From Janibacter melonis (GTDB lineage Bacteria; Actinomycetota; Actinomycetes; Actinomycetales; Dermatophilaceae): a stretch of 64,000 bases of DNA. The notes below the pieces were generated by a model, which searched no databases, was not told the origin of the DNA, and was given only the letters and a program-made list of their open reading frames with translations. Each line of letters opens with the position of its first letter. Within the stretch, counting starts at the first letter, position 1. The DNA lies in the NCBI RefSeq assembly GCF_020567375.1, contig NZ_JAJBZM010000003.1, positions 635,333 through 699,332 on the forward strand, in the 5' to 3' direction. Of the stretch, positions 4,248 to 61,597 are shown one piece after another. The position numbers were made by a program, and so were the translations under genes.

Positions 4248-4277
4248 GCGCTCAGTCTGGCAGATAAAAAGCAATGA

Positions 4278-4294
4278 CCGGACACCTGGTCCGG
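4278..4294. promoter_or_regulatory. Perfect inverted repeat CCGGAC-N5-GTCCGG in the narG-regulator/narK intergenic region
   Basis: A 17-nt dyad about 30 nt upstream of the regulator start. It is one of three small dyads in this 243-bp divergent region; the others are CCCTG-N6-CAGGG at 4340-4355 and the AT-rich one at 4434-4449. An operator function is inferred from position only. Confidence 0.35.
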
Positions 4295-4424
4295 CGCGTC
4301 GACCGCGGCCCTATTCGGCAACGCCGACAGGTCGTAATTCCCTGCTACGGCAGGGTTTGTCACGCGTTCAACCATCTGCGACCGGGCCGTCGTAGACGTG
4401 GTCGAAGGGGGTCTGCGCCGGGTG

Positions 4425-4449
4425 TAGGGTCATTTTTAAGCGATTAAAA
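4425..4449 (+). promoter_or_regulatory. narK promoter -10 (TAGGGT) with overlapping AT-rich operator candidate TTTTAA-N4-TTAAAA
   Basis: TAGGGT at 4425-4430 fits an actinobacterial -10. The dyad TTTTAA gcga TTAAAA at 4434-4449 would cover the expected transcription start, a typical repressor position. It is a striking AT island in 72% GC DNA. A related half-site (ATAAAAAGC) lies at 4264-4272, just upstream of the divergent regulator gene, which suggests one protein reads both. No good -35 is seen, so an activator may also be needed. Confidence 0.45.
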
Positions 4450-4490
4450 GGAGACGTCCGAGAGGGCGTCCGGGCTCACGAGGAGCACCC

Positions 4491-5858
4491 ATGGCGGCAG
4501 CGCAAGCAGCACGTCCGGCACCCATGCAGACCGGCGGCGCCGGCTACCGCGGGGCCACCCGCGTGCTCGTCATGTCGAGCACGGCCTTCACCCTGATGTT
4601 CGCCGTGTGGCTGATGTTCGGCGTCCTCGGCGTGCCGATCCAGGCCGAGCTCGGTCTCAGCGAGCCCCAGCTCGCGTGGATCTCCGCGGTCGCGGTGCTC
4701 AACGGCTCGATGTGGCGCCTGCCGGCCGGCATGCTCGCCGACCGGGTGGGCGGCCGGGTCGTGACGATCGCGATGCTCCTGCTCACCGCGATCCCGTGCT
4801 TCCTCGTCACCCAGGCGGGCAGCTACGCCACCCTGCTCGTCCTCGCCTTCCTCGTCGGCTTCGCCGGCAACCTCTTCAGCGTCGGCGTCGCGTGGAACTC
4901 CGCGTGGACCCCCAAGGAGCACCAGGGCTTCGCGCTCGGCGTCTTCGGTGCGGGCAACGTCGGCGCGTCGGTCACCAAGCTGCTGCTCGTCCTCGCCCCC
5001 GGCCTGCTCACGGCCACCGCCGGGGCGACCTATCTCGGCGTGGTCGAGGGAGGGTGGCGGGTCATCCCGGCCATCTACTCGGTCGCGCTCGTCGTCGTCG
5101 CGCTGCTCACCTACCTCGTCGTCCCGCGGCAGGACCGGATGGCGGGCCAGGGCAAGCCGTTGCGGGCGATGCTCGCCCCGCTGCGCGAGCTGCGGGTGTG
5201 GCGCTTCAGCCTCTACTACGCCGCCGTCTTCGGCGCCTACGTCGCGCTCTCGGCCTGGATGCCGCACTACTACGTGACCACCTTCGGGGTCGAGCTGCGC
5301 ACGGCAGCCCTGCTCACCGCGCTCTTCATCTTCCCGGCCTCGCTGCTTCGCCCGCTCGGCGGCTGGGTCTCGGACCGGGTCGGGGCCCGGCGGGTCATGT
5401 ACGCGACCTTCGTCGTCATGCTCCTCGCGAGCGGCGTCCTCATGATGCCGAACGGGCACCTCGTCGTCGTCCACGCCGACGGCTCGACGAGCGAGCACCT
5501 CGCCTACGGCCTGGGCATCGCCCCCTTCACCGCCCTCCTCGTGCTCCTCGGGTGCGCGATGGGCATCGGCAAGGCCGCCGTCTTCAAGCACATCCCCGAG
5601 TACTTCCCCGACAACGTCGGCTCGGTCGGCGGGCTCGTGGGGATGCTCGGCGGGCTCGGGGGCTTCTTCCTGCCGCTGCTCTTCGCCTACACGAAGCAGT
5701 GGAGCGGCTTCCCGACGAGCACCTTCTTCGTCGTCTTGGTCCTCACGGCCGTCTGCCTCGCGTGGATGCACCTCACGGTCGTACGGATGCTCCACGACGA
5801 GTCGCCCGAGCTCGCCGACCACTTCGAGGCGCCGCAGGGCGCCCTCGCCACCCGCTGA
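4491..5858 (+). CDS. narK: NarK-type nitrate/nitrite transporter (first copy)
   Basis: Major facilitator of the nitrate/nitrite porter family, moving nitrate in and/or nitrite out to support NarGHI. It has 455 aa and about 12 hydrophobic segments. Family markers are the glycine-rich nitrate signature GAGNVGASV (residues 153-161) and the two substrate-coordinating arginines expected in TM2 and TM8: R76 in MWRLPAGMLADR and R287 in SLLRPLGGWVSDR. A purine-rich ribosome site (gaggagcacccATG) precedes the start. It is followed after 34 nt by a second narK, probably co-transcribed. The nitrate/proton symport versus antiport split seen for paired NarK1/NarK2 proteins elsewhere cannot be assigned from sequence alone. 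Confidence 0.93.
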   Translation: MAAAQAARPAPMQTGGAGYRGATRVLVMSSTAFTLMFAVWLMFGVLGVPIQAELGLSEPQLAWISAVAVLNGSMWRLPAGMLADRVGGRVVTIAMLLLTAIPCFLVTQAGSYATLLVLAFLVGFAGNLFSVGVAWNSAWTPKEHQGFALGVFGAGNVGASVTKLLLVLAPGLLTATAGATYLGVVEGGWRVIPAIYSVALVVVALLTYLVVPRQDRMAGQGKPLRAMLAPLRELRVWRFSLYYAAVFGAYVALSAWMPHYYVTTFGVELRTAALLTALFIFPASLLRPLGGWVSDRVGARRVMYATFVVMLLASGVLMMPNGHLVVVHADGSTSEHLAYGLGIAPFTALLVLLGCAMGIGKAAVFKHIPEYFPDNVGSVGGLVGMLGGLGGFFLPLLFAYTKQWSGFPTSTFFVVLVLTAVCLAWMHLTVVRMLHDESPELADHFEAPQGALATR

Positions 5859-5892
5859 TCCTCACCCCTTCGCGCAGACAAGGACACCACCG

Positions 5893-7302
5893 ATGAGCAG
5901 CACGACCCCCACCGCCCGAGCAGGTCGCACCGGAGGCGAGTGGCTCCAGTCCTGGGATCCCGAGGACGAGCAGAGCTGGGACAAGCCGCTGGCCTGGCGC
6001 ACCCTGTGGATCACGACCTTCTGCCTCACCCTCGCCTTCGTCGCGTGGTTCCTGCCGAGCGCGATCATCCCCAAGCTCACGGCGCTCGGCTACGACCTCA
6101 ACGCCTCGCAGCTGTACTGGATGGCCGCGATGCCGGGTCTGGCCGCCGGGCTCTTCCGGCTCGTGTGGATGGTGCTGCCCCCGATCATGGGCACCCGCAA
6201 GATGGTCGCGCTCACGACGCTGCTCCTCGTCTTCTCCACGCTCGGCTGGGGCGTGCGGGTCCAGCAGCCCACCGCGCCGTACTGGGAGCTCATGACCCTC
6301 GCCTTCCTCGCCGGCATCGGCGGCGGCGCCTTCTCGGGCTTCATGCCGAGCACGAGCTACTTCTTCCCGAAGCGGATGCAGGGCACCGCCCTGGGGCTGC
6401 AGGCCGGGCTGGGCAACTTCGGCGTCTCGCTGGTGCAGCTGCTCACGCCCTACCTCATCGCGCTCAGCGGTCTGGCGATCTTCGGCGGCAGCCAGATGCT
6501 CTCGGCGCCGGGCAAGGAGCCGACGCAGGTGTGGTTCCAGAACGCCGCCTTCGTGTGGATCCCGCTCATGGTGCTCGGCGCCGTCCTCGCGTGGACGATG
6601 CTGCGCTCGGTGCCGGTGCAGGCCAACATCCGTCAGCAGTTCGACATCTTCGGCAACCAGGACACCTGGTGGATGACGCTGCTCTACATCATGACCTTCG
6701 GCACCTTCTCTGGCCTGTCGGCGCAGTTCGGCCTCCTCATGGCCAACCTCTACGGCAGCGGCAACGACGCGATCGTCACCGGGGCGGGCGCCAGCGCCCA
6801 GCTCCTCGTCCCGGGCTACGAGGTGCCCGACGTCGTCAAGTACGTCTTCCTCGGCCCGCTCGTCGGCGCCGGCGCGCGCGTGCTCTTCGCGCCGCTCACC
6901 GACCGGATGGGCGGGGCGGTCTGGACGCTCGTCTCCGGCATCGGCCTCGTCGCCTCGATCGCCTTCACGATGACGGCCCTCACCCCCGACACGACCTCGG
7001 CAGCCACCCTCGAGGCAGGCTTCACGAAGTTCTTGTGGGGGATGCTCGCGATCTTCCTCTTCTCGGGCATCGGCAACGCCTCGACCTTCAAGCAGATGCC
7101 GATGATCTTCGAGCGCCGTCAGGCCGGTGGCGTCATCGGCTGGACCGCCGCCATCGCGGCCTTCGGGCCCTTCTTCTTCGGGGTCGGCGTGACGACCTTC
7201 GGGGCGCTCGCCTTCTACGGCATCGGCATCGCCTGGGCGCTCATGTGCATCGCCATCACGTGGTGGCGATACGCCCGCCCGGGGGCGCCGAAGAAGAGCT
7301 GA
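5893..7302 (+). CDS. narK2: NarK-type nitrate/nitrite transporter (second copy, longer N-terminus)
   Basis: Second nitrate/nitrite MFS porter, 469 aa. It starts with a hydrophilic N-terminus of about 35 residues rich in W, D and E, then TM1. The nitrate signature appears as GLGNFGVSL, and an Arg follows in GLFRLVWMVLP; the late motif NASTFKQMP is also typical. It clearly differs from the preceding gene, so this is a pair of diverged subtypes rather than a recent duplication. An AAGGA sequence lies 9-13 nt before the ATG. Transcription probably ends at the hairpin at 7323-7354. Confidence 0.92.
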   Translation: MSSTTPTARAGRTGGEWLQSWDPEDEQSWDKPLAWRTLWITTFCLTLAFVAWFLPSAIIPKLTALGYDLNASQLYWMAAMPGLAAGLFRLVWMVLPPIMGTRKMVALTTLLLVFSTLGWGVRVQQPTAPYWELMTLAFLAGIGGGAFSGFMPSTSYFFPKRMQGTALGLQAGLGNFGVSLVQLLTPYLIALSGLAIFGGSQMLSAPGKEPTQVWFQNAAFVWIPLMVLGAVLAWTMLRSVPVQANIRQQFDIFGNQDTWWMTLLYIMTFGTFSGLSAQFGLLMANLYGSGNDAIVTGAGASAQLLVPGYEVPDVVKYVFLGPLVGAGARVLFAPLTDRMGGAVWTLVSGIGLVASIAFTMTALTPDTTSAATLEAGFTKFLWGMLAIFLFSGIGNASTFKQMPMIFERRQAGGVIGWTAAIAAFGPFFFGVGVTTFGALAFYGIGIAWALMCIAITWWRYARPGAPKKS

Positions 7303-7322
7303 CCTGGCAGGACAGGGGGCAG

Positions 7323-7354
7323 GGGCCGTCCGTGCGGGAGCGCACGGGCGGCCC
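7323..7354 (+). terminator. Hairpin downstream of narK2
   Basis: Two 14-nt arms (7323-7336 and 7341-7354) pair with one G-U type mismatch around a GGAG loop and are followed by a short T-containing stretch (cttgtcg). This fits an intrinsic terminator of the kind common in GC-rich actinobacteria, where a long U tract is often missing. Confidence 0.65.
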
Positions 7355-7435
7355 TTGTCGTCGGGATCGGGGCCTGCGCACCGTAGGCTCAGGGCGTCCT
7401 CGACCCCGACCGCAACAGCACAGGAGAAGACACGC

Positions 7436-9580
7436 GTGGAGATCTGGCCCGGCGCCCCCTACCCCCTCGGAGCGACGTACGACGGGTCAGGAGTCAACTT
7501 CGCCGTCTTCTCCGAGGTGGCCGAGCGTGTCCAGCTCTGCCTCATCGACGACGACGGCGAGCAGACCTGCGTCGAGCTCACCGAGGTCGACGCCTTCGTC
7601 TGGCACTGCTACCTGCCGCAGGTGCAGCCCGGCCAGCGCTACGGCTACCGCGTCCACGGGCCCTACGAGCCCGAGCAGGGCCACCGCTGCGACCCGAGCA
7701 AGCTGCTCCTCGACCCGTACGCGAAGGCGATCGAGGGCCAGGTCGTCACCGACCCGGCGCTCTTCTCCTACGACTTCGAGGACCCCTCGGTGCGCAACGA
7801 GGAGGACAGCGCCGGCAAGACGATGCTCTCCGTCGTCATCAACCCCTTCTTCGACTGGGGCCACGACCGCCCGCCGCGCCACGAGTACCACGAGTCGGTC
7901 ATCTACGAGGCCCACGTCAAGGGCCTGACGATGACCCACCCCGACGTGCCGGAGGAGATCCGCGGCACGTACTCGGCCATCGCCCACCCGGCGATCATCG
8001 GCCACCTCACCGATCTCGGGGTCACCGCGATCGAGCTGCTCCCGGTGCACCAGTTCGTCAACGACACCGGCCTGCAGGACAAGGGCCTGTCGAACTACTG
8101 GGGCTACAACACCATCGGCTTCCTCGCCCCGCACAACGGCTACGCCTCGAGCGGGCGCGGCCAGCAGGTCACCGAGTTCAAGACGATGGTCAAGGCGCTG
8201 CACGAGGCGGACATCGAGGTCATCCTCGACGTCGTCTACAACCACACCGCCGAGGGCAACCACCTCGGGCCGACCCTGGCCTTCCGCGGTCTGGACAACG
8301 CGTCCTACTACCGCCTCGTCGACGACGCCCCCCAGCACTACTACGACACGACGGGCACGGGCAACAGCCTGCTCATGCGCAGCCCGCACGTGCTCCAGCT
8401 CATCATGGACAGCCTGCGCTACTGGGTCACCGAGATGCACGTCGACGGCTTCCGCTTCGACCTCGCGGCGACGCTGGCCCGGCAGTTCCACGAGGTCGAC
8501 AAGCTCTCGGCCTTCTTCGACCTCATCCAGCAGGACCCGATCATCAGCCAGGTCAAGCTCATCGCCGAGCCCTGGGACATCGGTGACGGCGGCTACCAGG
8601 TCGGCAACTTCCCGCCCCTGTGGACGGAGTGGAACGGCAAGTACCGCGACACCGTGCGCGACTACTGGCGCGGCGAGGGCGCGACCCTCGGCGAGTTCGC
8701 CTCGCGGCTGACCGGGTCCTCCGACCTCTACGAGCACTCGGGCCGCCGCCCCTTCGCGTCGATCAACTTCGTCATCGCCCACGACGGCTTCACCCTGCGC
8801 GACCTCTTCTCGTACAACGACAAGCACAACGAGGCCAACGGCGAGGACGGGCGTGACGGCGAGAGCCACAACCGCTCGTGGAACTGCGGCGTCGAGGGGC
8901 CGACCGACGACCCCGAGGTGCTCGCGCTGCGCGCCCGCCAGCAGCGCAACATCCTCACGACCCTGCTCCTCAGCCAGGGCGTGCCGATGATCGCCCACGG
9001 CGACGAGCTCGGTCGCACCCAGGACGGCAACAACAACGTCTACTGCCAGGACAACGAGACCTCGTGGATGGACTGGGAGCTCGAGCTGCCCGACCAGGAG
9101 CTGCTCGAGTTCACCCGCGCGGTCGTCTCGTTGCGCCGTGAGCACCCCGTCTTCCGCCGCCGGCGCTTCTTCGCCGGCCGGGCCGACCACGGCGGTGAGT
9201 CCGCGATCGGCGACATCGAGTGGTTCCGTCCCGACGCCCAGCACATGGGTGACGAGGAGTGGGGCGACTCGGCCTCCGGGGCCATCATGGTCTTCCTCAA
9301 CGGCCAGGCGATCCCCGAGCCGGACGAGCGGGGCAACCCGCTCGTCGACGACGACTTCGTCATGCTCTTCAACTCCAGCCCCGACCCGGTGACCTTCACG
9401 CTCCCCGGCGAGGCGTACGGCCAGTGCTGGGTCTGCGTCATCGACACGGCGGCCGACGTCGTCGACGGCGGCGAGCACGACGCCGGCGCCCAGGTCGAGG
9501 TCGACGACCGCAGCGTCGTCGTGCTGCGCAACCGGCGCGACGCCGGGGTGACCCCGACCGGCGCCAACCCGCTCGGCTGA
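7436..9580 (+). CDS. glgX: Glycogen debranching enzyme GlgX (isoamylase-type, GH13)
   Basis: Hydrolyses alpha-1,6 branches of glycogen or limit dextrin; cytoplasmic. 714 aa, normal for the family. An N-terminal CBM48-like domain (EIWPGAPYPLGATYDGSGVNF) precedes the GH13 barrel. Catalytic triad: nucleophile D342 in VDGFRFDLA, acid/base E378 in LIAEPWD, and D450 in IAHDGFTLRD. The GTG at 7436 is chosen because AGGAG lies about 9 nt upstream; an upstream in-frame start at 7355 would remove that site and add non-homologous residues. TAGGCT at 7384-7389 is a possible -10. Transcribed towards a GNAT gene on the other strand with a strong palindrome between them. Confidence 0.96.
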   Translation: MEIWPGAPYPLGATYDGSGVNFAVFSEVAERVQLCLIDDDGEQTCVELTEVDAFVWHCYLPQVQPGQRYGYRVHGPYEPEQGHRCDPSKLLLDPYAKAIEGQVVTDPALFSYDFEDPSVRNEEDSAGKTMLSVVINPFFDWGHDRPPRHEYHESVIYEAHVKGLTMTHPDVPEEIRGTYSAIAHPAIIGHLTDLGVTAIELLPVHQFVNDTGLQDKGLSNYWGYNTIGFLAPHNGYASSGRGQQVTEFKTMVKALHEADIEVILDVVYNHTAEGNHLGPTLAFRGLDNASYYRLVDDAPQHYYDTTGTGNSLLMRSPHVLQLIMDSLRYWVTEMHVDGFRFDLAATLARQFHEVDKLSAFFDLIQQDPIISQVKLIAEPWDIGDGGYQVGNFPPLWTEWNGKYRDTVRDYWRGEGATLGEFASRLTGSSDLYEHSGRRPFASINFVIAHDGFTLRDLFSYNDKHNEANGEDGRDGESHNRSWNCGVEGPTDDPEVLALRARQQRNILTTLLLSQGVPMIAHGDELGRTQDGNNNVYCQDNETSWMDWELELPDQELLEFTRAVVSLRREHPVFRRRRFFAGRADHGGESAIGDIEWFRPDAQHMGDEEWGDSASGAIMVFLNGQAIPEPDERGNPLVDDDFVMLFNSSPDPVTFTLPGEAYGQCWVCVIDTAADVVDGGEHDAGAQVEVDDRSVVVLRNRRDAGVTPTGANPLG

Positions 9581-51255: not shown

Positions 51256-51792
51256 TCAGACCGGGTGACCGAGGTGGGAGAGGGCCTGGCGCAGGAGGAC
51301 TCCGTGGCCGCCGCCCATGTCGGCGAGCAGGCCCGGCTCGGAGGCCTCGCTCGGGGTGAGCCAGGACAGGTCGAGCGCGTCCTGCTGGGGGGCGCAGTCA
51401 CCGCCGACGGGCACGACGTAGACCATCGCGACGGCGTGCTGGCGCGGGTCGTGGAAGGGCGTGACCCCGGGGGTGGGGAAGAACTCCGCCACGGTGAAGG
51501 GCTGGGGGCTCGGCGGGACCTGCGGCAGGGCCATCGGGCCGAGGTCCTTCTCGAGGTGGCGCACGAGCGCGTCGCGGATCCGCTCGTGGTACTGGACTCG
51601 ACCGCCGACGAGCTCGCGCTCCATCCGGCCGGTGTCGGTGGCCCGCAGCAGCAGCCCGACGGAGGTGATCTCGCCGCTCTGGTCGACGCGCACGGGCACG
51701 GCGACGACGTAGAGCATCGGCACACGGCCCCGCACCGACTCGAGCTCTTCGCGAGGCAGCCAGGCCTCCTGGCGGTGGGTCTCGGTCGACAT
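51256..51792 (-). CDS. DUF4916-type NUDIX-like protein
   Basis: 178 aa. Resembles the actinobacterial NUDIX-like family DUF4916: WLPREELESVRGRVPMLYVVAVPVRVD, then a fold like NUDIX hydrolases but without a clean Nudix box (GVTPFHDPRQHAVAMVYV). Catalysis is doubtful. CAGGAT (51800-51805) is 7 nt before the ATG, so it probably has its own promoter although it follows the ECF operon. Confidence 0.75.
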   Translation of the reverse strand: MSTETHRQEAWLPREELESVRGRVPMLYVVAVPVRVDQSGEITSVGLLLRATDTGRMERELVGGRVQYHERIRDALVRHLEKDLGPMALPQVPPSPQPFTVAEFFPTPGVTPFHDPRQHAVAMVYVVPVGGDCAPQQDALDLSWLTPSEASEPGLLADMGGGHGVLLRQALSHLGHPV

Positions 51793-51835
51793 GGCCCCGA
51801 TCCTGCCAGAGCGGGCGGCGGCCCGACGCACGGCG

Positions 51836-52684
51836 TCAGCCGGGCTGGTCCTGCGGCCCCTCGAAGCGCGCCTGCGCGTCGAAGGCCGCCTTGCGCGAGG
51901 CCCGCCGCAGGGCCCCGAGGACGGCCCGACCGGTGAGGCAGACGAGGAGCACGGTCGTCAGCGCCCGCCCGATGTCCCACCCCAGCGAGGTCGACACGGA
52001 GTAGACGAGGAAGCGCTGGAGGTTCTCGAGCGCCGGCGCCCCGGGCACGAAGGTGATCGCGCTCTCGCCCTGGACGGTGAAGGGCCAGAAGGCGAAGTTC
52101 AGCGCGACGCCGTAGAGCAGCGCGGCGAGCGCGCCGTACCCGGCGAGCAGCGCGATCTCGGCACGCCCCCTCGCCCGCGGCAGCAGCCCGGCGCCGAGCC
52201 CGACCCACGCGGCACCGAGCATCTGGAAGGGCAGCCACGGGCCGACACCGGCCGTGAGCAGCGCCGACGAGAAGAGCGTCGTCGTGCCGAGCACGAAGCC
52301 GAAGCCCGGCCCGAAGACCCTCCCGGCCAGCACGAGGAGGAAGAAGACGGTCTCGACCCCCGCGGTGCCCGCGCCCATCGGCCGCAGGATCGCGCCCACG
52401 GCCGAGAGGACCCCGAGCATCGCGACGGCCTTGACGTCGAGCCCGCCCTCGGCGACCTCGGCGAGGACGACCGCCAGGACGAAGGGGAGGAGGAGGGCGA
52501 GCACGAGCGGCGCGTCGGCGCTGTGCTCGCTCGCCATCTCCGGCGAGATCAGCAGCGGCCAGCCGAACGCGAGCAGGCCCACGACGCTCGACATGACGAC
52601 CGCGGCGGTCGACCACGGCCGCAGCTGCACGGCCCGGACCCCGTGACCGTCGGCGACCGGGCGCGGCGGGAGCGTCGTGCTCAT
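51836..52684 (-). CDS. ECF transporter substrate-binding (S) component
   Basis: 282 aa, six or more hydrophobic segments, with the S-component-like stretch GAILRPMGAGTAGVETVFFLLVLAGRVFGPGFGF. Last of the ECF genes; its ATG lies within the stop of the ATPase gene. Substrate is inferred as cobalamin from the riboswitch and the transcobalamin-like proteins upstream; the protein itself does not state the ligand. The C-terminal 30 residues are hydrophilic. Confidence 0.85.
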   Translation of the reverse strand: MSTTLPPRPVADGHGVRAVQLRPWSTAAVVMSSVVGLLAFGWPLLISPEMASEHSADAPLVLALLLPFVLAVVLAEVAEGGLDVKAVAMLGVLSAVGAILRPMGAGTAGVETVFFLLVLAGRVFGPGFGFVLGTTTLFSSALLTAGVGPWLPFQMLGAAWVGLGAGLLPRARGRAEIALLAGYGALAALLYGVALNFAFWPFTVQGESAITFVPGAPALENLQRFLVYSVSTSLGWDIGRALTTVLLVCLTGRAVLGALRRASRKAAFDAQARFEGPQDQPG

Positions 52685-54309
52685 CGCGGTGCCCGGAGCT
52701 GCGCGCAGACCTCGGCGACGGTGAGGTAGCCGGCCGGGGCCGTGATCTTCGCGACCTGGGGGGCGAAGGCGGGGGAGGCCAGGACGACGTCGGCCGTCGG
52801 GCCGTCGGCGACGACCTCGCCGGCGGCGAGGAGCAGCACCCGGTCGGCGCTCTCGGCGACGAACTCCACGTCGTGGGTCGAGCACAGGACCGCTCGCCCG
52901 CTGCGCGCGAGCCGGCGCACGGCGTCGCGCAGGGCGGCCTTCGCGGTGTAGTCGAGCCCGCGCGTCGGCTCGTCGAGGAGCAGGACCGGCGGGTCGGCGG
53001 TGAGCTGCACCGCGAGCACGAGCGAGAGGCGCTGCCCCTCGGAGAGGTCACGGGGGTGGCGCTCGCCGGGGATGCCCGGGGCGAGGGCGTCGAGGTGCGC
53101 GCGAGCCGTGCCGGGCGCGGCGTCGCTCTCGCGGTCGGCCTGCGCGAGCTCGGCGTCGACGGTGTCGAGGTAGAGCAGGTCGCTCGCGGTCTGCGGCACG
53201 AGCCCCACCCGGGCGCGACGCTGCGCCGCGCCGAGGTCGGCCGTGTCGGCCCCGTCGACGCGCACCCGCCCGGCGGTGCGCGGGCCGGAGCCCTGCAGGG
53301 CCCACAGCAGCGTCGACTTGCCGCTGCCGTTGCGGCCCATGAGGGCGGTGACGCTGCCGCGGGGCAGGACGAGGTCGACGTCCTGGACGGCGACGAGGTC
53401 GTCGTAGCGCACGCTCACCCCGCCCGCCTCGAGCACCGGCTCGGTGGCGGTCGGCGGCACCGGGGCGGGTCGGGGCGGCAGCTCGCGCCGCAGGGAGACG
53501 GCGGCGCGGCGGGCGTCACGCACCGACAGCGGCAGCGGGTCCCACCCGGCGACGCGGCCGAGCTCGACGACGGGCGGCGCCACGGTCGCGGTGCGCATGA
53601 CGCTCGCGGGCGACCCGTGCTCGACCCGCCCGTCGACGACGTGGAGGACGGAGTCGGCGTGGTGGAGCACCCGCTCGATGCGGTGCTCGGCGATGATCAC
53701 CGTCGTCGCGAGGTCGTGGACGAGCCGGGTGATCGCGGCGAGCACGTCCTCGGCGCCCGTCGGGTCGAGCGCCGACGTCGGCTCGTCGAGGACGACGACG
53801 CGCGGGTGGCAGGTGAGGACGGCGCCGATGGCGACCCGCTGCTGCTGGCCCCCGGAGAGGTCGCGCAGCGGGGCGTCGCGCAGGTCGGCGATGCCGAGGA
53901 CGTCGAGGGTCTCCTCGACCCGCTTGCGCATCGTCGCCGGCGGCAGCGCGAGCTGCTCCATGCCGTAGGCGAGCTCGGCCTCGACGGTGTCGGTGACGAA
54001 GCCGGCGAGGGGGTCCTGCCCGACGACACCGACGACGTCGGCGAGGTCGCGCGGCCGGTGGGTGCGCGTGTCGCGCCCGGCGACGACGACCCGCCCCGAG
54101 AGGGTGCCGCCGGTGAAGTGGGGGACCGTGCCGTTGATCGTGCCGAGCAGGGTGCTCTTGCCCGAGCCGGTCCGACCGACGACGACGACGAGCTCGCCCT
54201 CCTCGATCTCGACGTCCACGTCGCGCAGCACCGGCTGCGTCGCGTCGGCGTAGGTCACCCCGACGTGCTCGAGGACCACGGCCGGCCCGTGGTGGCTGCC
54301 CGTGCTCAT
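52681..54309 (-). CDS. ecfA: ECF transporter energy-coupling ATPase, two fused ATP-binding domains
   Basis: 542 aa: two ABC ATPase domains in one chain. First: Walker A GRTGSGKS, signature LSGGQQQR, Walker B VVVLDEP. Second: Walker A GRNGSGKS, signature LSEGQRLSL, Walker B VLLLDEP. It replaces the separate EcfA1/EcfA2 pair. Overlaps 4 nt with EcfT upstream and with the S component downstream. Powers import through EcfT. Confidence 0.94.
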   Translation of the reverse strand: MSTGSHHGPAVVLEHVGVTYADATQPVLRDVDVEIEEGELVVVVGRTGSGKSTLLGTINGTVPHFTGGTLSGRVVVAGRDTRTHRPRDLADVVGVVGQDPLAGFVTDTVEAELAYGMEQLALPPATMRKRVEETLDVLGIADLRDAPLRDLSGGQQQRVAIGAVLTCHPRVVVLDEPTSALDPTGAEDVLAAITRLVHDLATTVIIAEHRIERVLHHADSVLHVVDGRVEHGSPASVMRTATVAPPVVELGRVAGWDPLPLSVRDARRAAVSLRRELPPRPAPVPPTATEPVLEAGGVSVRYDDLVAVQDVDLVLPRGSVTALMGRNGSGKSTLLWALQGSGPRTAGRVRVDGADTADLGAAQRRARVGLVPQTASDLLYLDTVDAELAQADRESDAAPGTARAHLDALAPGIPGERHPRDLSEGQRLSLVLAVQLTADPPVLLLDEPTRGLDYTAKAALRDAVRRLARSGRAVLCSTHDVEFVAESADRVLLLAAGEVVADGPTADVVLASPAFAPQVAKITAPAGYLTVAEVCAQLRAPR

Positions 54310-55451
54310 GCGCTCTCCTGCGGGGTCGCGACGGCTCGGGCAGGGGCACCGGACGCGCGGCGGGCGGCGCTCGCCCGGGTGACCGGCGGGAGCGGGGTGA
54401 GCACCCCGGGCAGCGCGGCGACGAGGAGCCCGAGCGCGGCCGTCCACGGCAGCGCGGGCGCCCCGAGGGGCTGCAGGGGCAGCGACAGGCCGAGGGGGTC
54501 GAGCTCCTGGGCGGCGAGCACCCCGGCGGCCCCGGCGACGCCGCACGCGAGGACGAGCCACTCCGCGCCCCGCCACGGGTCGGGCCGGTAGACGGTGCGG
54601 TGCACCGCGGCGCTGCCCAGCCGCAGCCCGAGGGCGCCCAGACCGATCCCGCCGACGAGCATCGGCGTGCCGATCCACGCCGGGCTGCGGGTGTCGAGCA
54701 GTCCGTAGACCCCGAGGCAGATCGCGAGGAGCGACGCGAGGGTGACCCCGCTGACGAGCCGCCGGCGGCGAAGGGGGACGTCGCCGCGCCGGCCGTAGCC
54801 GCGCGAGTCCATCGCCGAGGCGAGCATGAGGGAGCGGTCGAGGGTGTCCTGCAGGACCGGCATCGCGACCCGGCGGAAGGCGCGCAGACCCCGCCCGGCG
54901 TCACCGCGCAGTCGCCGCGCCCGCAGCACCCGCTGGACGGACTCGGCGAGCTGGGGGGCGACGGTGATCGCGACGACGACGGCGGCCCCGATCTCGTGGA
55001 GCGCGCCGGGCAGCGCCGCGAGCAGCCGCTTGGGGTTCGCCAGCGCGTTGGCCGCGCCGACGCACAGGATCATCGTCGCCAGGCGCAGGCCCTCCAAGCC
55101 CGCGGCGAGCAGCCCCTCCAGTCGGACGGTGCCCAGCAGGTCGATGCCGGCGGCCCACGAGGGCAGGGTCGCGCTCGGCAGCTCGAGCAGCACGGTCTCG
55201 CCCCACTTGAGGCCGAGCAGGACGTGCAGGACGAGACGCAGGACGACGACGAGGACGCCGAGCCAGACGTAGAGGCGGAAGGCCCGGGCCCACGGGGTGC
55301 TCGGACGACGCGACACGACGACGAAGGTGACGACCGAGATCGCGAGGAGCAGCAGCAGCGGGTTCGTCGTCGCCGAGACGCCGACCGCGAGCGCGATGGC
55401 CCACAGCCACCAGGCCCCGGGGTGCACCGCCCGGGGGAGGGGTGGGGTCAC
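54306..55451 (-). CDS. ecfT: ECF transporter transmembrane coupling protein EcfT
   Basis: 381 aa. Several hydrophobic helices at each end and the EcfT coupling helices with Ala-Arg-Gly motifs: RVLRARRLRGDAGRG and LMLASAMDSRGYGRRG. The GTG at 55451 sits in the stop of the DUF4430 gene (GTGA). Contains CCC CTT CGC, another CCCCTTCG motif built with a rare Leu codon. Confidence 0.92.
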   Translation of the reverse strand: MTPPLPRAVHPGAWWLWAIALAVGVSATTNPLLLLLAISVVTFVVVSRRPSTPWARAFRLYVWLGVLVVVLRLVLHVLLGLKWGETVLLELPSATLPSWAAGIDLLGTVRLEGLLAAGLEGLRLATMILCVGAANALANPKRLLAALPGALHEIGAAVVVAITVAPQLAESVQRVLRARRLRGDAGRGLRAFRRVAMPVLQDTLDRSLMLASAMDSRGYGRRGDVPLRRRRLVSGVTLASLLAICLGVYGLLDTRSPAWIGTPMLVGGIGLGALGLRLGSAAVHRTVYRPDPWRGAEWLVLACGVAGAAGVLAAQELDPLGLSLPLQPLGAPALPWTAALGLLVAALPGVLTPLPPVTRASAARRASGAPARAVATPQESA

Positions 55452-56467
55452 GCGCGTCGACGACGGGCGGCGATGACCGCGCCCGCGCCGAGGAGGGCGA
55501 CGAGCCCGAGGCCGGCGAGCGCCGGCAGGGCGGAGGAGCCGTCCTCCTCGCGCACCGGGGTGCTCGTCGGCAGCACGTCCTGGGGGGCGCCGGCCGTCGC
55601 GCCGGCCGAGCCCGAGGAGCTGGTGCGGGACGCCGACGGGGTGCGCGCGCGGGTCGAGCCCGATCGCGTCGACCCGGCAGTGGCGCTCGCGCGGCCGCTC
55701 GAGGACGCGGAGGGGGTCGAGGTCGCCCCTGGCGCCGCGCCGGAGCCGTCGGTGGTCGCCCCAGGTGCAGGGGCGGAGGGAGTCGAGCCCGGCGCGGGCG
55801 CGCTGCTGCCGGTCGCCCCGCCCGAGCCACCGGAGCCCTCATCGCCCGAGCCGGAGCCCGAGCCACCGGAGCCCTGGGTGCTCGAGCCGGAGCCCGAGCC
55901 GCCCGAGCCCGAGCCGCCCGAGCCCGAGCCGCCCGAGCCCGAGCCGCTGGACCCGCCGCTCACGCCTCCGCTCGACGAGGGCGCCGCGCTCGGGGTGGGC
56001 GCCGAGGCAGCCGCGGGCACCGACCACGCCGGCGCCGACCCGGCGCCGAAGCGCCAGCCCTGGTAGCTGCCGGGGGCCGGGTCGCTCTGCGGGCTGTACG
56101 CGCCGTAGCTGCTGTAGGCCCACGACCCACCGGCCTCGGCCCGCCAGAAGGACCACGAGGCGCTGCCCGGGGGCGTGCGCACGCACGGGTCGCTGCTCGG
56201 CTGCCCGCTGATCCGGCACACGAAGCCGGGCTGGGTCTGGACGTCGGTGATGGTGAAGCCCGCCCTCTTCAGGGCGTCGGCCCCGGAGGTCGGGTCGCCC
56301 GGGGCGCAGCGCACGTCGACGCCGCCCGAGTACTGCACGACGACCGTGACGCCGGAGGTGCCCTGGCAGGCCGCGGCCTGCCCCGGCGCGGCGCTCACCG
56401 CGAGCGCCGGGGCGACGAGCAGCGTCGCGGCGGCGCCGCGGGCGAGCAGGCGGGTGGTCGTCGACAT
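55448..56467 (-). CDS. Secreted, membrane-anchored DUF4430 (transcobalamin C-terminal-like) protein
   Basis: 339 aa. A signal peptide ends near ALAVSAAPGQAA; the DUF4430 domain spans about 35-150, with WSFWRAEAGGSWAYSSYG and GSYQGWRFGAG, the aromatic pattern seen in the beta domain of intrinsic factor/transcobalamin. Then a Gly/Ser linker of about 60 residues encoded by 15-bp tandem repeats (55880-55955), a Pro/Thr/Ala stretch, one transmembrane helix (ALAGLGLVALLGAGAVIA) and ARRRRA, so it is anchored facing outward. Cobalamin binding is inferred. Second gene of the riboswitch operon, 14 nt after the barrel protein. Confidence 0.85.
   Translation of the reverse strand: MSTTTRLLARGAAATLLVAPALAVSAAPGQAAACQGTSGVTVVVQYSGGVDVRCAPGDPTSGADALKRAGFTITDVQTQPGFVCRISGQPSSDPCVRTPPGSASWSFWRAEAGGSWAYSSYGAYSPQSDPAPGSYQGWRFGAGSAPAWSVPAAASAPTPSAAPSSSGGVSGGSSGSGSGGSGSGGSGSGGSGSGSSTQGSGGSGSGSGDEGSGGSGGATGSSAPAPGSTPSAPAPGATTDGSGAAPGATSTPSASSSGRASATAGSTRSGSTRARTPSASRTSSSGSAGATAGAPQDVLPTSTPVREEDGSSALPALAGLGLVALLGAGAVIAARRRRA
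55880..55955. repeat. Short tandem repeat encoding the Gly-Ser linker
   Basis: Successive 15-bp units (CCCGAGCCGCCCGAG on the plus strand) encode GSGSG/GSGGS repeats in the DUF4430 protein. The count could vary between strains. Confidence 0.75.
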
Positions 56468-56481
56468 CGTGGTCCCGGGCC

Positions 56482-57792
56482 TCAGCGGTGCGCCCCGCGG
56501 CGACGCGAGCCCACGAGGGCGCCGGCACCGACGAGGGCGAGGATCCCGGCGCCGACCCAGCCGGCGCCGCCGAGGCCGCCGTCACGGGCGTCGTCGGTCT
56601 GGACGACCTCGGGTCGGGTGGGCTCCTGGCCGGGGGTCGTCGGGCGTGCGGTCGCGGTGACCGTCGTCGTGCTCGTCGACGGCTCGTCGCTCGGGTCGGT
56701 CGTGCTCGGGTCGCCCGGGGTGGGCTCGTCGGCGCAGTCCAGCGCGACGGGAGCGGCGGCCGCGCCGTCGGAGGTCACGTCGAGGTAGGAGACGTCGGTG
56801 CTGCCGAGCAGGGCCTGGGCGGTCGAGCGGTTGAGCTGGTCGCTCGGCTGCGTCGAGGCGTCGGCGGCCGCGGCGTCGGCCGGGGTGTAGGCCAGGGCGC
56901 CGGCGACGTCCGGGGACTCGCAGCCCAGGCGCACGGAGTCGAGGAAGCCGCGCGCGGAGGTCAGCGCGTCGGTGCGACCGGCGAGCCGGAAGGCGACCGC
57001 GGCCAGACCGGTGGAGTTGGAGTTCTCCTCGCTCGTCGAGGTGCCGCCGCCGACCCCGCCGTCCCCGCCCTGACGGGCCTGGAGGTAGTCGACCGCCTCG
57101 GTGATCGCCGCGTCCTGGCCGCCGGCGCCCGAGAGGGCCTGGACCGCGACGGAGGTCGCGTCCGGGTCCGAGGTGCACGCGCCGGCGTTCTCGAGGGCGA
57201 AGCCGCCGTCGGCGCACTGCCGGGTGAGCAGGAAGTCCACGGCCTCGTCGGACACGTCGACGCCGTGGCGCTCGAGCCCGATGATCGAGAAGGACTGGCC
57301 GAGGGTGTTCGAGTAGTCGCCGTACTGCGAGTCGTCGGTGAACTGCCCGCTCGCCTGCTCGCGGGCCTGCAGCGCGCCCAGGTAGTCGGTGCCGCCGACG
57401 GTCCCGCCGAGGCCGCGCGAGGCGGTGAGCGTCAGCAGCTTGCCGGTCGCGCCGACGTAGAGCTCGTCACCGGCGCTGCCGGTGTAGGTGCCGGCCGCAC
57501 CGAGGACGTAGTCGGTCGAGGCCTGCGACTGGTCGCCGGCGGTGCCCGTGGCCTGCATCGCGAGGATCGCGTCGATCGTCACGCCGGGGTCGTCGTAGGA
57601 CTGGTCGCCGTAGCTGACGCTCAGCCGGTCGTCGTTCGCCTCGAGCTGGGCGGCGAGGTAGGCCGCGGAGGTCGTGGCGCTCGGCTGCTCGGCGGCCTGC
57701 GCGGCGGGGGCGAGCGCGAGGGTGGCGGCCGCAGCGAGGGCGGAGCCGGTGAGCAGGGTGGCGAAGGGGGGACGGCGTGACGTGAGGGGCAC
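56482..57792 (-). CDS. Secreted, membrane-anchored alpha/alpha-barrel protein resembling the N-domain of intrinsic factor/transcobalamin
   Basis: 436 aa from the GTG at 57792 (purine-rich GAGAGAG upstream); a GTG at 57837 would spoil the signal peptide. Signal peptide ends near LALAPAAQA. Residues about 35-340 are repeated helical units of the prenyltransferase/squalene-cyclase toroid type: SFSIIGLERHGVDVSDEAVD, RQCADGGFAL, DPDATSVAVQALSG and NSTGLAAVAFRLAG, the same kind of repeats as the alpha6/alpha6 barrel of B12-binding proteins. A Thr/Pro/Ser linker, a C-terminal helix (AGWVGAGILALVGAGALVG) and SRRRGAHR anchor it. Enzymatic cyclase motifs are missing. First gene after a cobalamin riboswitch. 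Confidence 0.82.
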   Translation of the reverse strand: MPLTSRRPPFATLLTGSALAAAATLALAPAAQAAEQPSATTSAAYLAAQLEANDDRLSVSYGDQSYDDPGVTIDAILAMQATGTAGDQSQASTDYVLGAAGTYTGSAGDELYVGATGKLLTLTASRGLGGTVGGTDYLGALQAREQASGQFTDDSQYGDYSNTLGQSFSIIGLERHGVDVSDEAVDFLLTRQCADGGFALENAGACTSDPDATSVAVQALSGAGGQDAAITEAVDYLQARQGGDGGVGGGTSTSEENSNSTGLAAVAFRLAGRTDALTSARGFLDSVRLGCESPDVAGALAYTPADAAAADASTQPSDQLNRSTAQALLGSTDVSYLDVTSDGAAAAPVALDCADEPTPGDPSTTDPSDEPSTSTTTVTATARPTTPGQEPTRPEVVQTDDARDGGLGGAGWVGAGILALVGAGALVGSRRRGAHR

Positions 57793-57884
57793 GGTGGTCT
57801 CTCTCGGTCGGGTGGCGAGCTGGTCTGCACCCGGCACCGAGATGACGGGCTCGACCCGTGGTCCGCGACGGGTGGTGTGCTGAG

Positions 57885-58010
57885 CCCGCGCAGGCCAGGC
57901 GTTCCGACTTCGGCACGACGTGCCGTCACGGCTGCGGGACAGTGCCGGGATCTCACCGGCTTCCCCTGGGGCTGCGCGTCCCGCCCCGGCGACGGGGTGG
58001 GCACCATCAG
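57885..58010 (-). promoter_or_regulatory. Cobalamin (adenosylcobalamin) riboswitch
   Basis: On the minus strand, GATGGTGCC near 58008 begins the aptamer, followed by the diagnostic core GGGGAAGCCGGTGAGATCCC, then GGCACTGTCCCGC and the downstream GTGACGGCAC arm, and finally GAAGTCGGAACGCCTGGCC, equivalent to the GAAGCCAGG..CCTGCC end. A -10 candidate TACCCT is at 58009-58014 (read minus). It lies 93 nt before the barrel-protein start and probably represses the whole operon when B12 is plentiful. No U-tract terminator is seen, so control may be at translation. Confidence 0.88.
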
Positions 58011-58036: not shown

Positions 58037-58300
58037 TACACTGCTCGTAGCGTCTGAGCCGTCATCAGCGGCGAGCTGTCCGGAAGAACGGGACGCGACC
58101 CCTTCGCCCGAGGTGTCGCTCCTCACTAGAACCGGACGGGTGGGCCCGTCACAGCCCTCATGAGCGGTCGGCAGCACCCCCTTCGCCCGCGAAGGGGTGA
58201 TGACGGCAAGCGAGGTGGTACCGCGGTGCCGCCGAGACCGACAGGTCGAGGCGACGTCGTCCTCGTCGACGACGACCGCGACGACCCGCTGGAGCCACAG
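58037..58300 (+). promoter_or_regulatory. Isoleucine T-box leader of ileS
   Basis: TACACT (58037-58042) is a -10. The short stem I GCCG-TCATCAG-CGGC (58058-58072) shows ATC as the specifier at 58064-58066. The T-box AGGTGGTACCGCGG is at 58213-58226, with TGGT (58216-58219) to pair with the uncharged tRNA end. Another hairpin with arms CCCCCTTCG/CGAAGGGG lies at 58178-58194. Short stem I and no obvious terminator agree with the translational T-boxes of actinobacterial ileS genes; the ribosome site GGAG is at 58291-58294. Confidence 0.9.
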
Positions 58301-58303
58301 CCG

Positions 58304-61300
58304 ATGACCTACCCCAAGGCCTCCACCCACCCCGGCGCCGCCCTCGGCGTGCCCGCGAGCCCCTCCTTCCCCGCGATCGAGGAGGGCGTGCTCGCCTACT
58401 GGGAGGGCGATGACACCTTCCGCGCCTCCGTCGAGCAGCGCGCCTCCACGACGCGCGCCGACGAGTTCGTCTTCTACGACGGGCCCCCCTTCGCCAACGG
58501 CCTGCCGCACTACGGCCACCTGCTCACCGGCTACGTCAAGGACGTCGTCCCGCGCTACCAGACGATGCTCGGCAAGCGGGTCGAGCGGCGCTTCGGCTGG
58601 GACACCCACGGGCTGCCCGCCGAGCTCGAGGCGATGCGTCAGCTCGGCCTGAAGACGACCGACGAGATCCGCGAGCTCGGCATCGAGCGCTTCAACGACG
58701 CGTGCCGCGAGTCGGTCATGCGCTACACGGGGGAGTGGCGCGACTACGTCACCCGCCAGGCCCGCTGGGTCGACTTCGACGACGACTACAAGACGATGAA
58801 CCCCGACTTCATGGAGTCGGTCATGTGGGCCTTCAAGAGCCTGCACGACAAGGGCCTGGTCTACGAGGGCTTCCGCGTGCTGCCCTACTGCTGGCAGGAC
58901 GAGACCCCGCTGTCGAACCACGAGCTGCGGATGGACGACGACGTCTACCAGCAGCGTCAGGACCCCGCCGTCACCGTCGGCCTGACGATGGACTCCACGG
59001 GCGAGGACCCGGTGCTCGACGGCGCCCGGCTGCTCGTGTGGACGACGACCCCGTGGACCCTGCCCAGCCACCTCGCGGTCATGGTCGGCTCGAGCATCGA
59101 CTACGTGGTCGTCGAGGCCCCGGTGCCCGGGACCGACGAGACGGGCAGGTTCGTCCTCGCCGAGGCGCGCCTGGGCCACTACGCCCGTGAGCTCGGCGAG
59201 GAGCCGACGGTCCTCGGTCGGTACACCGGTGCCCAGCTGCTCGGGCGCACGTACACGCCCCCCTTCGCCTACTACCTGGGGCACGAGCGGGCCTTCCGCG
59301 TCGTCGCCGCCGACGACGCCGTGACGACGACCGACGGCTCGGGCCTGGTGCACACCGCCGGCGCCTTCGGCGAGGTCGACAAGGAGGTCACCGACCGCGA
59401 GGGCATCGCCGCCGTCATGCCGGTCGCCAAGGACGGGCGCTTCACCGCGCCGGTCGCCGACTACGAGGGCCTGCAGGTCTTCGACGCCAACGGCCCGATC
59501 ATCGACGCGCTGCGCGCGACGACGCGCGGCGAGGCGAGCGGCGGGGTCACCCCCGGCACGGTGCTGCTGCGCCGCGAGACCTACGAGCACTCCTACCCGC
59601 ACTGCTGGCGCTGCCGTCAGCCGCTCATCTACAAGGGCGTCGAGTCGTGGTTCGTCGAGGTCACGGCGATCAAGGAGCGGATGCTCGCCAACAACGAGCA
59701 GATCACCTGGACGCCCGAGCACGTCAAGCACGGGCAGTTCGGCAAGTGGCTCGAGAACGCCCGCGACTGGTCGATCACCCGCAACCGCTTCTGGGGCTCC
59801 CCGGTGCCGGTGTGGAAGTCCGACGACCCGGCCTACCCGCGCCTGGACGTCTACGGCTCCTTCGAGGAGATCGAGCGCGACTTCGGCCGGCTGCCGCGCA
59901 ACGAGGCCGGTGAGCCCGACCTGCACCGCCCGTGGGTCGACGACCTCACCCGGCCCAACCCCGACGACCCGACGGGCCGCTCGACGATGCGCCGCGTCGA
60001 GGACGTCCTCGACGTGTGGTTCGACTCCGGGTCGATGAGCTACGCGCAGGTGCACTACCCCTTCGAGCAGCGCGAGTGGTTCGAGGAGCACTTCCCGGGC
60101 GACTTCATCGTCGAGTACATCGGGCAGACGCGCGGCTGGTTCTACACCCTGCACGTGCTCGCCACCGCGCTCTTCGACCGGCCGGCCTTCTCGAGCTGCA
60201 TCAGCCACGGCATCGTCCTCGGCAACGACGGCGCGAAGATGAGCAAGAGTCTCCGGAACTACCCCGACGTCCGCGAGGTCTTCGACCGCGACGGCGCCGA
60301 CGCGATGCGCTGGTTCCTCATGAGCAGCCCGATCCTGCGCGGCGGCAACCTCGTCGTCACCGAGGAGGGCATCCGCGAAGGGGTCCGCCAGGTCCTCCTG
60401 CCGCTGTGGAGCAGCTGGTACTTCTTCAGCCTCTACGCCAACGCGATGCCCGGCGGGTACGAGGCGCGCTGGTCCACGGCGTCGACCGACCCGCTCGACC
60501 GCTACCTGCTGGCGAAGCTGCGCGAGCTCGTCGTCGACGTCCGCGAGCGGATGGACGCCTACGACATCGCCGGGTCGTGCGACGCCGTGCGCGGCTTCAC
60601 CGACGTGCTGACCAACTGGTACATCCGGCGCTCGCGCGAGCGCTTCTGGGCGACGGGCGAGGACACGGGCGACGCGCAGGCCGCCTTCGACACGCTGCAC
60701 ACGACCCTCGAGGTCCTGTGCCGGGTCGCGGCGCCGCTGCTGCCGCTGACGACCGAGGAGATCTGGCGGGGCCTGACCGGCGGGCGCTCGGTGCACCTCG
60801 CCGACTACCCGGACGCCGCGGACCTGCCCGAGGACCACGCGCTCGTCGTCGCCATGGACACGGCCCGTCAGGTCTGCTCGACCGCGTCCTCGCTGCGCAA
60901 GTCCAACAAGCTGCGCACCCGTCTGCCCCTGCGCGACCTCACGGTCGTCGTCCCGGGCGCGGCCGCGCTCGCCCCCTTCGGCGCGATCGTCGCCGACGAG
61001 GTCAACGTGCGCCAGGTCAGCCTGCTCGACCTCGACGACCCCGCGGCCGACGGATTCGGGGTGACCCAGCGCCTCACGGTCAACGCGCGCGCCGCCGGGC
61101 CGCGCCTGGGCCGCGAGGTGCAGCACGCGATCAAGGGCAGCAAGACGGGCGACTGGTCGGTGGCCGAGGACGGCACCGTCACCTCCGGCGGGCTCGCGCT
61201 CGTCGAGGGGGAGTACACCCTCGAGTCGGTCGTAGCCGACGACGGCTCGAGCAGCCGCGCGACGGCGATGCTGCCCGGGGGCGGCTTCGTCGTCCTCGAC

Positions 61301-61597
61301 ACCGAGGTCACCGAGGAGCTCGCCGCCGAGGGCCTGGCCCGCGACGTCGTGCGCGCCGTGCAGGACGCGCGCAAGCGCGCCGGGCTCGAGGTCTCGGACC
61401 GGATCAGCCTCACCGTCACCGGCAGCCAGCGGCTGTGGGAGGCGACGCTCGCCCACCAGGGCCTCGTCGTCGAGGAGACGCTCGCCGGCCAGTTCGGCGC
61501 CGCTCCCCAGCTCGAGGCGCTGCCCGTCGGCGAGGGCGTCGTCGAGACGACCCTGTCCGAGGGCGAGACGGTGCGCATCAAGGTGACCCGCCTCTAG
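58304..61597 (+). CDS. ileS: Isoleucyl-tRNA synthetase
   Basis: 1097 aa class I synthetase of the long (IleS2-like) type. HYGH (69-72) is the HIGH box and KMSKS is 645-649; CP1 editing domain in between ([13 protein letters not shown]). GGAG lies 9 nt before the ATG; a longer frame upstream (from 58160) runs through the T-box and is rejected. Uses several CCCCTTCG/CGAAGGGG motifs, one (60375) with the rare GAA codon. Regulated by uncharged tRNA-Ile through the T-box. Confidence 0.97.

Follow-up and report, generated by a model that had tools for sequence, protein, structure and literature searches.

How a Gram-positive bacterium gathers cobalamin (vitamin B12) outside its membrane and delivers it to an importer is the question raised by an operon of Janibacter melonis located within a stretch of 64,000 nucleotides (nt) of NCBI RefSeq assembly GCF_020567375.1 (contig NZ_JAJBZM010000003.1, positions 635,333 to 699,332), hereafter the window. 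Extracellular B12 capture by Gram-positives is poorly known. All features of the operon lie on the minus strand of the window, in the order cobalamin riboswitch, alpha/alpha-toroid gene, beta-grasp gene (hereafter the beta gene) and the genes for EcfT, EcfA and the S component of an energy-coupling factor (ECF) transporter (Table 1). We consider it likely that this operon encodes a high-affinity cell-surface uptake system for a corrinoid, most likely cobalamin.

The original prediction, made from the sequence alone, had described a B12 riboswitch core, a secreted toroid protein and a transporter made of EcfT, a fused double ATPase and an S component, all encoded by genes that overlap or nearly touch. 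These features were recovered: the riboswitch core scored above the gathering threshold of RF00174, the three transporter proteins had Pfam matches, the toroid protein combines a signal-peptide-like start with a clearly modelled toroid fold, and the toroid and beta genes are separated by 14 nt while the other three junctions overlap by 4 nt. The riboswitch match covers the core only (model positions 46-168 of 189) and is modest on its own; it is one of four RF00174 matches in the host genome. According to Pfam, the transporter has its own module, with EcfT, the EcfA pair and the S component all in one operon.

The same arrangement was observed in a comparison set of 40 loci, composed of the window and 39 of 40 fetched loci. 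EcfT, EcfA and the S component were found alongside the toroid-beta pair in 34 of the 40, window included, so that the conserved synteny expected of a dedicated ECF importer was seen. The S component shares 50-69% identity with 16 of its 17 aligned relatives and 38% with the remaining one. Furthermore, a riboswitch match of the cobalamin clan was found upstream of the pair in 35 of the 40 loci, among them the window, on the same strand and at most 900 nt from the toroid or beta domain. Among these matches, 23 reached the gathering score and 12 fell below it, the weakest two being those of L058 (E 0.063) and L061 (E 0.015). At the gathering level, three families of the clan were represented across the loci (RF00174, RF01482 and RF01689). 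That different aptamer classes occupy one place is hard to explain except by B12 control, in support of the predicted B12 regulation.

By a simple hydropathy cut, 37 of 42 beta proteins and 19 of 42 toroids have a membrane segment at the C-terminus, and 10 of the 42 toroids carry an LPxTG-like motif. The claim that both proteins are anchored thus stood for the window and failed as a general rule, and the beta protein appears to be the constant tether of the pair.

The beta protein had been assigned to DUF4430. At the level of Pfam this label was rejected, as PF14478 (DUF4430) matched neither the window beta protein nor any other protein of the host genome, nor, at E <= 1, any of the 21 and 21 domains of two beta alignments. 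The NCBIfam model NF040672 (SCO2322) gave E 0.0081 and 16.5 bits with the window protein, far below its cut-off of 85, and was touched at E <= 1 by 18 of the 21 members of the alignment of this protein. At the level of the fold, the label was retained by structure comparison. Foldseek ranked human transcobalamin first and second for an AlphaFold2 model of the beta domain computed from 21 sequences, with weak E-values (0.013 and 0.017) and nothing at E <= 0.001. VIA-align, which structurally re-aligns Foldseek's own match list and is not an independent search, placed the bacterial structure 3u7z first (Z 10.8), followed at ranks 2-15 exclusively by transcobalamin, haptocorrin or intrinsic factor (Z 9.6-10.7, 94-96 residues aligned, root mean square deviation 2.8-3.2), and the next entry dropped to Z 5.9. 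The window beta domain is therefore predicted to have the transcobalamin-like SLBB beta-grasp fold that the DUF4430 label implied. The aligned ranges were colinear (for example, 6-113 to 310-409), and the window beta domain therefore keeps the chain order of the carriers.

We also built a profile from 14 DUF4430 domains that Pfam recognises in other families of the phylum, several of them encoded in similar operons. Its alignment to the window family was in register (hhalign, 73 columns, P 2.2e-4, probability only 45). This result gives some support to kinship, rather than analogy, between the beta protein and the beta domain of the carriers. The prediction of an evolutionary parallel or relative of the animal carriers thus has some support on the side of the beta protein, by its fold and by the DUF4430 alignment, and none so far on the side of the toroid, whose best fold matches are terpene cyclases. 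Profile searches of the PDB sequences were uninformative: one beta-family profile matched mostly antibody chains (best E 0.0052, among the best 60 of 91 matches), a second matched a single ryanodine receptor (E 1.7), and P0001 alone gave one match (E 0.77), all of which look like chance matches. In the SLBB fold, according to a passage of PMC1949818, the hairpin insert that precedes strand 3 carries an aromatic residue stacking on the ligand; in the beta alignment, several relatives have an aromatic residue at this place and the window protein does not clearly have one.

From gene content, synteny, riboswitch association and predicted folds, we infer the ligand, the contact between toroid and beta protein and the hand-over to the importer as follows. 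With intracellular adenosylcobalamin low, the riboswitch would permit expression of the operon. Both surface proteins, secreted and tethered outside the membrane, would come together and close around a single corrinoid, held between the toroid's mouth and the beta domain in the manner of transcobalamin or intrinsic factor, whose two domains lie in one chain. The bound corrinoid would then be released to the S component, and EcfT together with the double ATPase would drive its import. The two halves of the proposed clamp are encoded by separate genes. By sequence, circular permutation has affected the beta domain in a large group of Actinomycetes and, in most of these loci, demonstrably the toroid as well.

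Several observations weigh against this proposal. The best fold matches of the toroid are terpene cyclases and not the intrinsic-factor barrel. No ECF genes were found nearby in 6 of the 40 loci (L044, L047, L049, L056, L057 and, at the end of a contig, L072), and no riboswitch match was found in 5 of them: L036, L037, L056 (to E 0.5), L071, L073 (gathering level only). In 20 further loci, fetched around PF14478 matches in other families of the phylum, four DUF4430 genes (L088, L096, L098 and L105) had no partner by the profiles used. An 18-member profile of the S component matched no PDB chain at E <= 10, although it was not confirmed that the PDB library includes the entry given for CbrT in PMC5997447; the S component is not visibly CbrT as judged by its sequence. 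Finally, the host is probably able to make its own B12, as CbiC is present and riboswitches precede CobN and a chelatase-like gene. With a FecCD permease following another riboswitch, the importer is not strictly needed. Five matches to the B12-binding domain were also found in the host. A host with a B12 pathway also departs from the pattern given in passages of PMC1796856, where key B12 enzymes are usually missing from bacteria that carry these proteins. Rather than being the host's sole source of B12, the system may serve to recapture or salvage it.

The apparent B12 pathway of the host and the FecCD permease would also suit a ligand that is a precursor or relative of B12 (cobinamide, other cobamides or a cobalt complex), the riboswitch then sensing the end product of the pathway. 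Cobinamide is the main rival ligand. The pair of L047 adjoins, and is divergent from, cobU-cobT-cobS, which are cobinamide salvage genes, and ECF-CbrT carries both cobalamin and cobinamide according to passages of PMC5997447. However, the beta domain has the fold seen in cobalamin carriers. As for a cobalt complex, ECF importers for cobalt use CbiM/CbiN, and no such family was matched by any of the five proteins of the operon. We regard a precursor or relative as an unlikely ligand and cobalamin as the better candidate.

A second alternative concerns the toroid, which could be a secreted enzyme such as a cyclase, leaving the beta protein alone to serve uptake. The NCBIfam model NF053823 (SCO2321) matched the window toroid with E 2.7e-25 and 89 bits, far below its cut-off of 300, and toroid families of Pfam were touched at E <= 1 by 17 and 19 of 20 alignment members. 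An AlphaFold2 model built from 20 sequences has type II terpene cyclases as its nearest solved structures (Foldseek E 2.5e-6; Z 25.1), and squalene-hopene cyclase and drimenyl diphosphate synthase are the best matches in both sequence and structure, which favors an enzyme. However, the place aligned to the DxDD motif of the cyclases reads mostly D-x-D-A/S-T in window-like toroids and D-x-N-S/A-T in those resembling SCO2321 (counts of these patterns are approximate), and DxDD strings occur in only 3 of 42 toroid domains, elsewhere in the chain. The catalytic motif is missing at the aligned place, and the toroid is therefore not a cyclase of class II. Moreover, the toroid is secreted and encoded within a B12-controlled operon. 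An enzymatic toroid is thus very unlikely.

As to kinship of the toroid with the alpha barrel of the carriers, the toroid fold is clear, terpene cyclases rank first, and no carrier was among the matches listed. The carriers' barrel was not among the best 60 of 91 PDB matches of the window-like toroid profile, was absent from the 53 matches of a profile of SCO2321-like toroids, and was not among the best 50 structural matches of either Foldseek or the re-alignment, an absence from lists that is no disproof. The Pfam family Cobalamin_bind touched 2 of 20 and 1 of 18 toroid members, with weak best E-values of 0.11 and 0.024. NF053823 itself matched in 141 of 296 genomes, 26 of them over the cut-off, as well as in 3 of 14 control genomes; we rejected 141 as a count of this system, many of these matches being weak and presumably other toroids.

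The loci fall into two groups, A and B, each represented by 21 beta domains and 21 toroids. Group A is window-like and has the chain order of the carriers; group B is of the SCO type, SCO being presumably the tag of Streptomyces coelicolor. In B toroids, the first ~110 profile positions have moved to the end, and in B beta domains the second half has moved to the front. We observed these changes without joining any sequences, by running profiles built from group A only on whole reading frames, with the own locus left out for A rows. All 21 beta proteins and all 21 toroids of group A were colinear. In contrast, the halves were swapped in 18 of the 21 B beta proteins, with only one half matched in the other 3, and B toroids were swapped in 16 of 21 cases, colinear in 4 and matched by one part only in 1.

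In a second assay, each domain was joined to its own copy, and a gain of more than 5 bits was counted. With tightly cut domains, all 21 B beta domains gained (mean 23.7 to 58.2 bits), and again all 21 on repeat, while 19 of 21 B toroids gained (mean 126.0 to 174.8), or 18 of 21 on repeat. None of the 21 domains gained in each of four own-group control sets. Furthermore, hhalign aligned the A and B toroid profiles with a shift of 110 columns (P 2.4e-38), and the alignment of the A and B beta profiles took in just one half (40 columns, P 9.8e-14). Two results speak against a permutation. When 12-13 flanking residues were left on the domains, doubling gave no gain in any of the 21 B beta domains, although 19 of 21 B toroids still gained; this beta failure is probably due to the extra linker at the joint, on which the assay without joining does not depend. 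In addition, when a B profile was run on doubled A sequences, 10 of 21 toroids gained and none of the 21 beta domains did. Taken together, the beta domain is rotated in all SCO-type loci (21 of 21) and the toroid in most of them (18 of 21). That these signals are an alignment artefact of a repetitive toroid with similar hairpins and a small beta domain is highly improbable, since the failures just described and three B toroids that do not read as permuted are set against swaps seen without doubling, controls that never gained and the shifted toroid profiles.

The N-terminal part of DUF4430 aligned to the C-terminal half of the B beta domain (P 5e-4, probability 31). From these profile comparisons, the order of group A looks ancestral.

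The order of the two proteins agreed in 35 of the 38 loci that have both, neither being permuted in 17 and both in 18. At L046, L051 and L073, a permuted beta domain stands beside a toroid that does not read as permuted; the reverse, a permuted toroid with an unpermuted beta domain, was not seen at any of the 38. With padded domains, where no B beta domain gained, the concordance count was 19 of 38. A concordance of 38 of 38 was rejected, as it followed by construction from group labels assigned locus by locus during profile building. The toroids of L046 (6129-7805), L051 (6234-7820) and L073 (6616-8274) begin like the permuted type, and the moved hairpins are not clearly recognised in them; these hairpins are possibly lost or diverged. 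An earlier mixed profile gave a swapped second match in the L046 toroid (E 1.6e-12).

We then considered how the two permutations are distributed over the trees. In the beta tree, group B forms one side of a branch (support 84/87). In the toroid tree, built by a quick method and holding 18 of the 21 B rows, B is nested in A and the group label needs 3 changes, 1 of them forced by starred branches. The label changes 4 times on the ECF tree, at least 3 times on well-supported branches, and L069 and L101 were flagged there as long branches. A single origin of the permutation is not plain from the trees. L050, which combines the A order with a B-like sequence, stands beside B in the beta tree and, with weak support, within B in the toroid tree. 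The ECF tree offers 3 independent pairs, and in all 3 the labels of toroid and beta domain change jointly, which is not significant (p 0.25; fewer than 6 pairs cannot reach 0.05, and the labels include the L046, L051 and L073 toroids). A-order toroids occur together with toroids over the SCO2321 cut-off in at least two genomes (G089 and G234) of family f25, presumably Streptomyces. The simplest reading of these sequence data is about one permutation per protein, after which the pair was transferred or replaced jointly; alternatively, the permutation of the pair could have arisen jointly more than once.

A bolder and still rather doubtful suggestion is that, on the surface of Actinobacteria, toroid and beta protein make up a B12 clamp of two obligate pieces which were permuted in concert. 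Once the termini, and with them the membrane tethers, of the one had moved, the other would have had to follow so that their two faces could still meet over the ligand. If true, nature would here have coupled the circular permutations of two proteins that interact, and the paired rotation would be a natural experiment on their joint rewiring. It would also give a function to the SCO2321 and SCO2322 families, two actinobacterial families without one, and a two-piece receptor with the fold of half of a human carrier would make the proposed bacterial origin of the carriers testable.

The idea of B12 scavenging at the surface is not new. In passages of PMC1796856, Burroughs et al. (2007) described a transcobalamin-like SLBB clade in low-GC Gram-positives, planctomycetes and some euryarchaea, fused to toroids on either side and encoded in operons with CbiO and CbiQ genes, predicted a role in B12 scavenging, and proposed a transfer to animals as the source of the animal carriers. 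The window proteins share with this clade the secreted or anchored beta-grasp protein, the toroid partner (there often fused) and CbiO/CbiQ-like genes. However, they are encoded by separate genes and are too divergent for the Pfam DUF4430 model, and one group is permuted; the passages on the clade mention neither a riboswitch nor a permutation. Human transcobalamin, haptocorrin and intrinsic factor similarly join a beta domain of this fold to a toroid partner. Unlike these single soluble chains, the window encodes two anchored proteins, with an ECF importer alongside instead of a receptor, and kinship of the toroid with their barrel is not established. ECF-CbrT of Lactobacillus delbrueckii, as presented in passages of PMC5997447, is likewise an ECF-type importer proposed for cobalamin; in contrast, the window S component has no sequence match in the PDB, and the operon has its own module and two extra surface proteins. 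Riboswitch-preceded ECF modules of acI Actinobacteria were predicted to be cobalamin transporters in passages of PMC5301498 that leave toroid and beta proteins unmentioned. The NCBIfam models SCO2321 (NF053823) and SCO2322 (NF040672), whose names give no function, represent the permuted type B, to which the window proteins, scoring far below the curated cut-offs, are distant kin. In the open-licence PMC literature, which leaves most subscription journals outside, we recognised no paper on the function of SCO2321/SCO2322 or on permutation of transcobalamin-like proteins. The divergent actinobacterial branch made of the SCO2321/SCO2322 families and its coupled circular permutation are apparently new.

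Table 1. Features of the operon, with positions in the window. pLDDT, predicted local distance difference test; pTM, predicted template modelling score; ABC, ATP-binding cassette.
Feature	Position	Strand	Evidence
Cobalamin riboswitch core, RF00174	57898..57965	-	cmscan 33.1 bits vs gathering 31.5, E 1.2e-4
Secreted alpha/alpha-toroid protein, distant SCO2321-like	56482..57792	-	Signal-peptide-like start, C-terminal anchor
Toroid domain as modelled	56770..57696	-	AlphaFold2 pLDDT 93.1, pTM 0.92
Toroid protein, C-terminal hydrophobic segment followed by RRR	56485..56565	-	Sequence, hydropathy 1.80
Secreted beta-grasp protein, distant SCO2322-like	55448..56467	-	Signal-peptide-like start, Gly/Ser/Pro-rich linker, C-terminal anchor
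Beta-grasp domain, predicted transcobalamin beta-domain fold	56030..56377	-	AlphaFold2 pLDDT 85.4, pTM 0.81
Beta protein, C-terminal hydrophobic segment followed by RRRR	55451..55528	-	Sequence, hydropathy 2.26
EcfT (CbiQ family), transmembrane coupling protein	54306..55451	-	Pfam PF02361, E 1.9e-9
EcfA, two ABC ATPase domains fused in one chain	52681..54309	-	PF00005 (ABC_tran), two stretches, E 1.3e-52
ECF S component, predicted corrinoid-specific	51836..52684	-	PF12822 (ECF_trnsprt), E 7.4e-8, 33.0 bits vs cut-off 30.7

Next to the operon, a DUF4916/NUDIX reading frame (51256-51831, minus strand) starts 4 nt past the S component, its true start being perhaps further in, and may share the operon transcript. 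On the other side, the divergent neighbour is a class I tRNA synthetase gene (58160-61597, plus strand; Pfam tRNA-synt_1), most likely specific for isoleucine.

Variations on the pair were observed among the compared loci. Tandem toroid-beta-toroid-beta arrangements occur at L059 (4185-8561) and L063 (4076-8453), and by the hydropathy cut the first toroid and the first beta protein of L059 have no C-terminal anchor. The pairs of L044, L047 and L049, which have no ECF genes nearby, are of the permuted type. The L056 toroid (3455-4615, minus strand) has an odd repeat pattern, with profile positions 178-251 followed by 56-293, and no partner of it was found at this locus. L064 carries a solitary beta gene without an anchor (1493-2080, minus strand), with its own cobalamin riboswitch at 2137-2250.

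Similar operons were found with Pfam-positive DUF4430 genes. PF14478 matched in 76 of 396 genomes of the phylum, none of those listed coming from the window's own family. Among the 20 loci fetched around such matches, 12 had toroid matches and 4 (L099-L102) had the full layout DUF4430-EcfT-EcfA-S-toroid. Of 20 genomes searched for RF00174, by our reading 13 have a gathering-level match with a DUF4430 match at most 3.5 kb downstream of it on the same strand. Finally, the L087 operon (1996-9137) carries both kinds of beta gene, as a row made of a window-type beta gene, EcfT, EcfA, the S component and a toroid is followed by a second, Pfam-positive DUF4430 gene, and the same genome also has a toroid over the SCO2321 (NF053823) cut-off.

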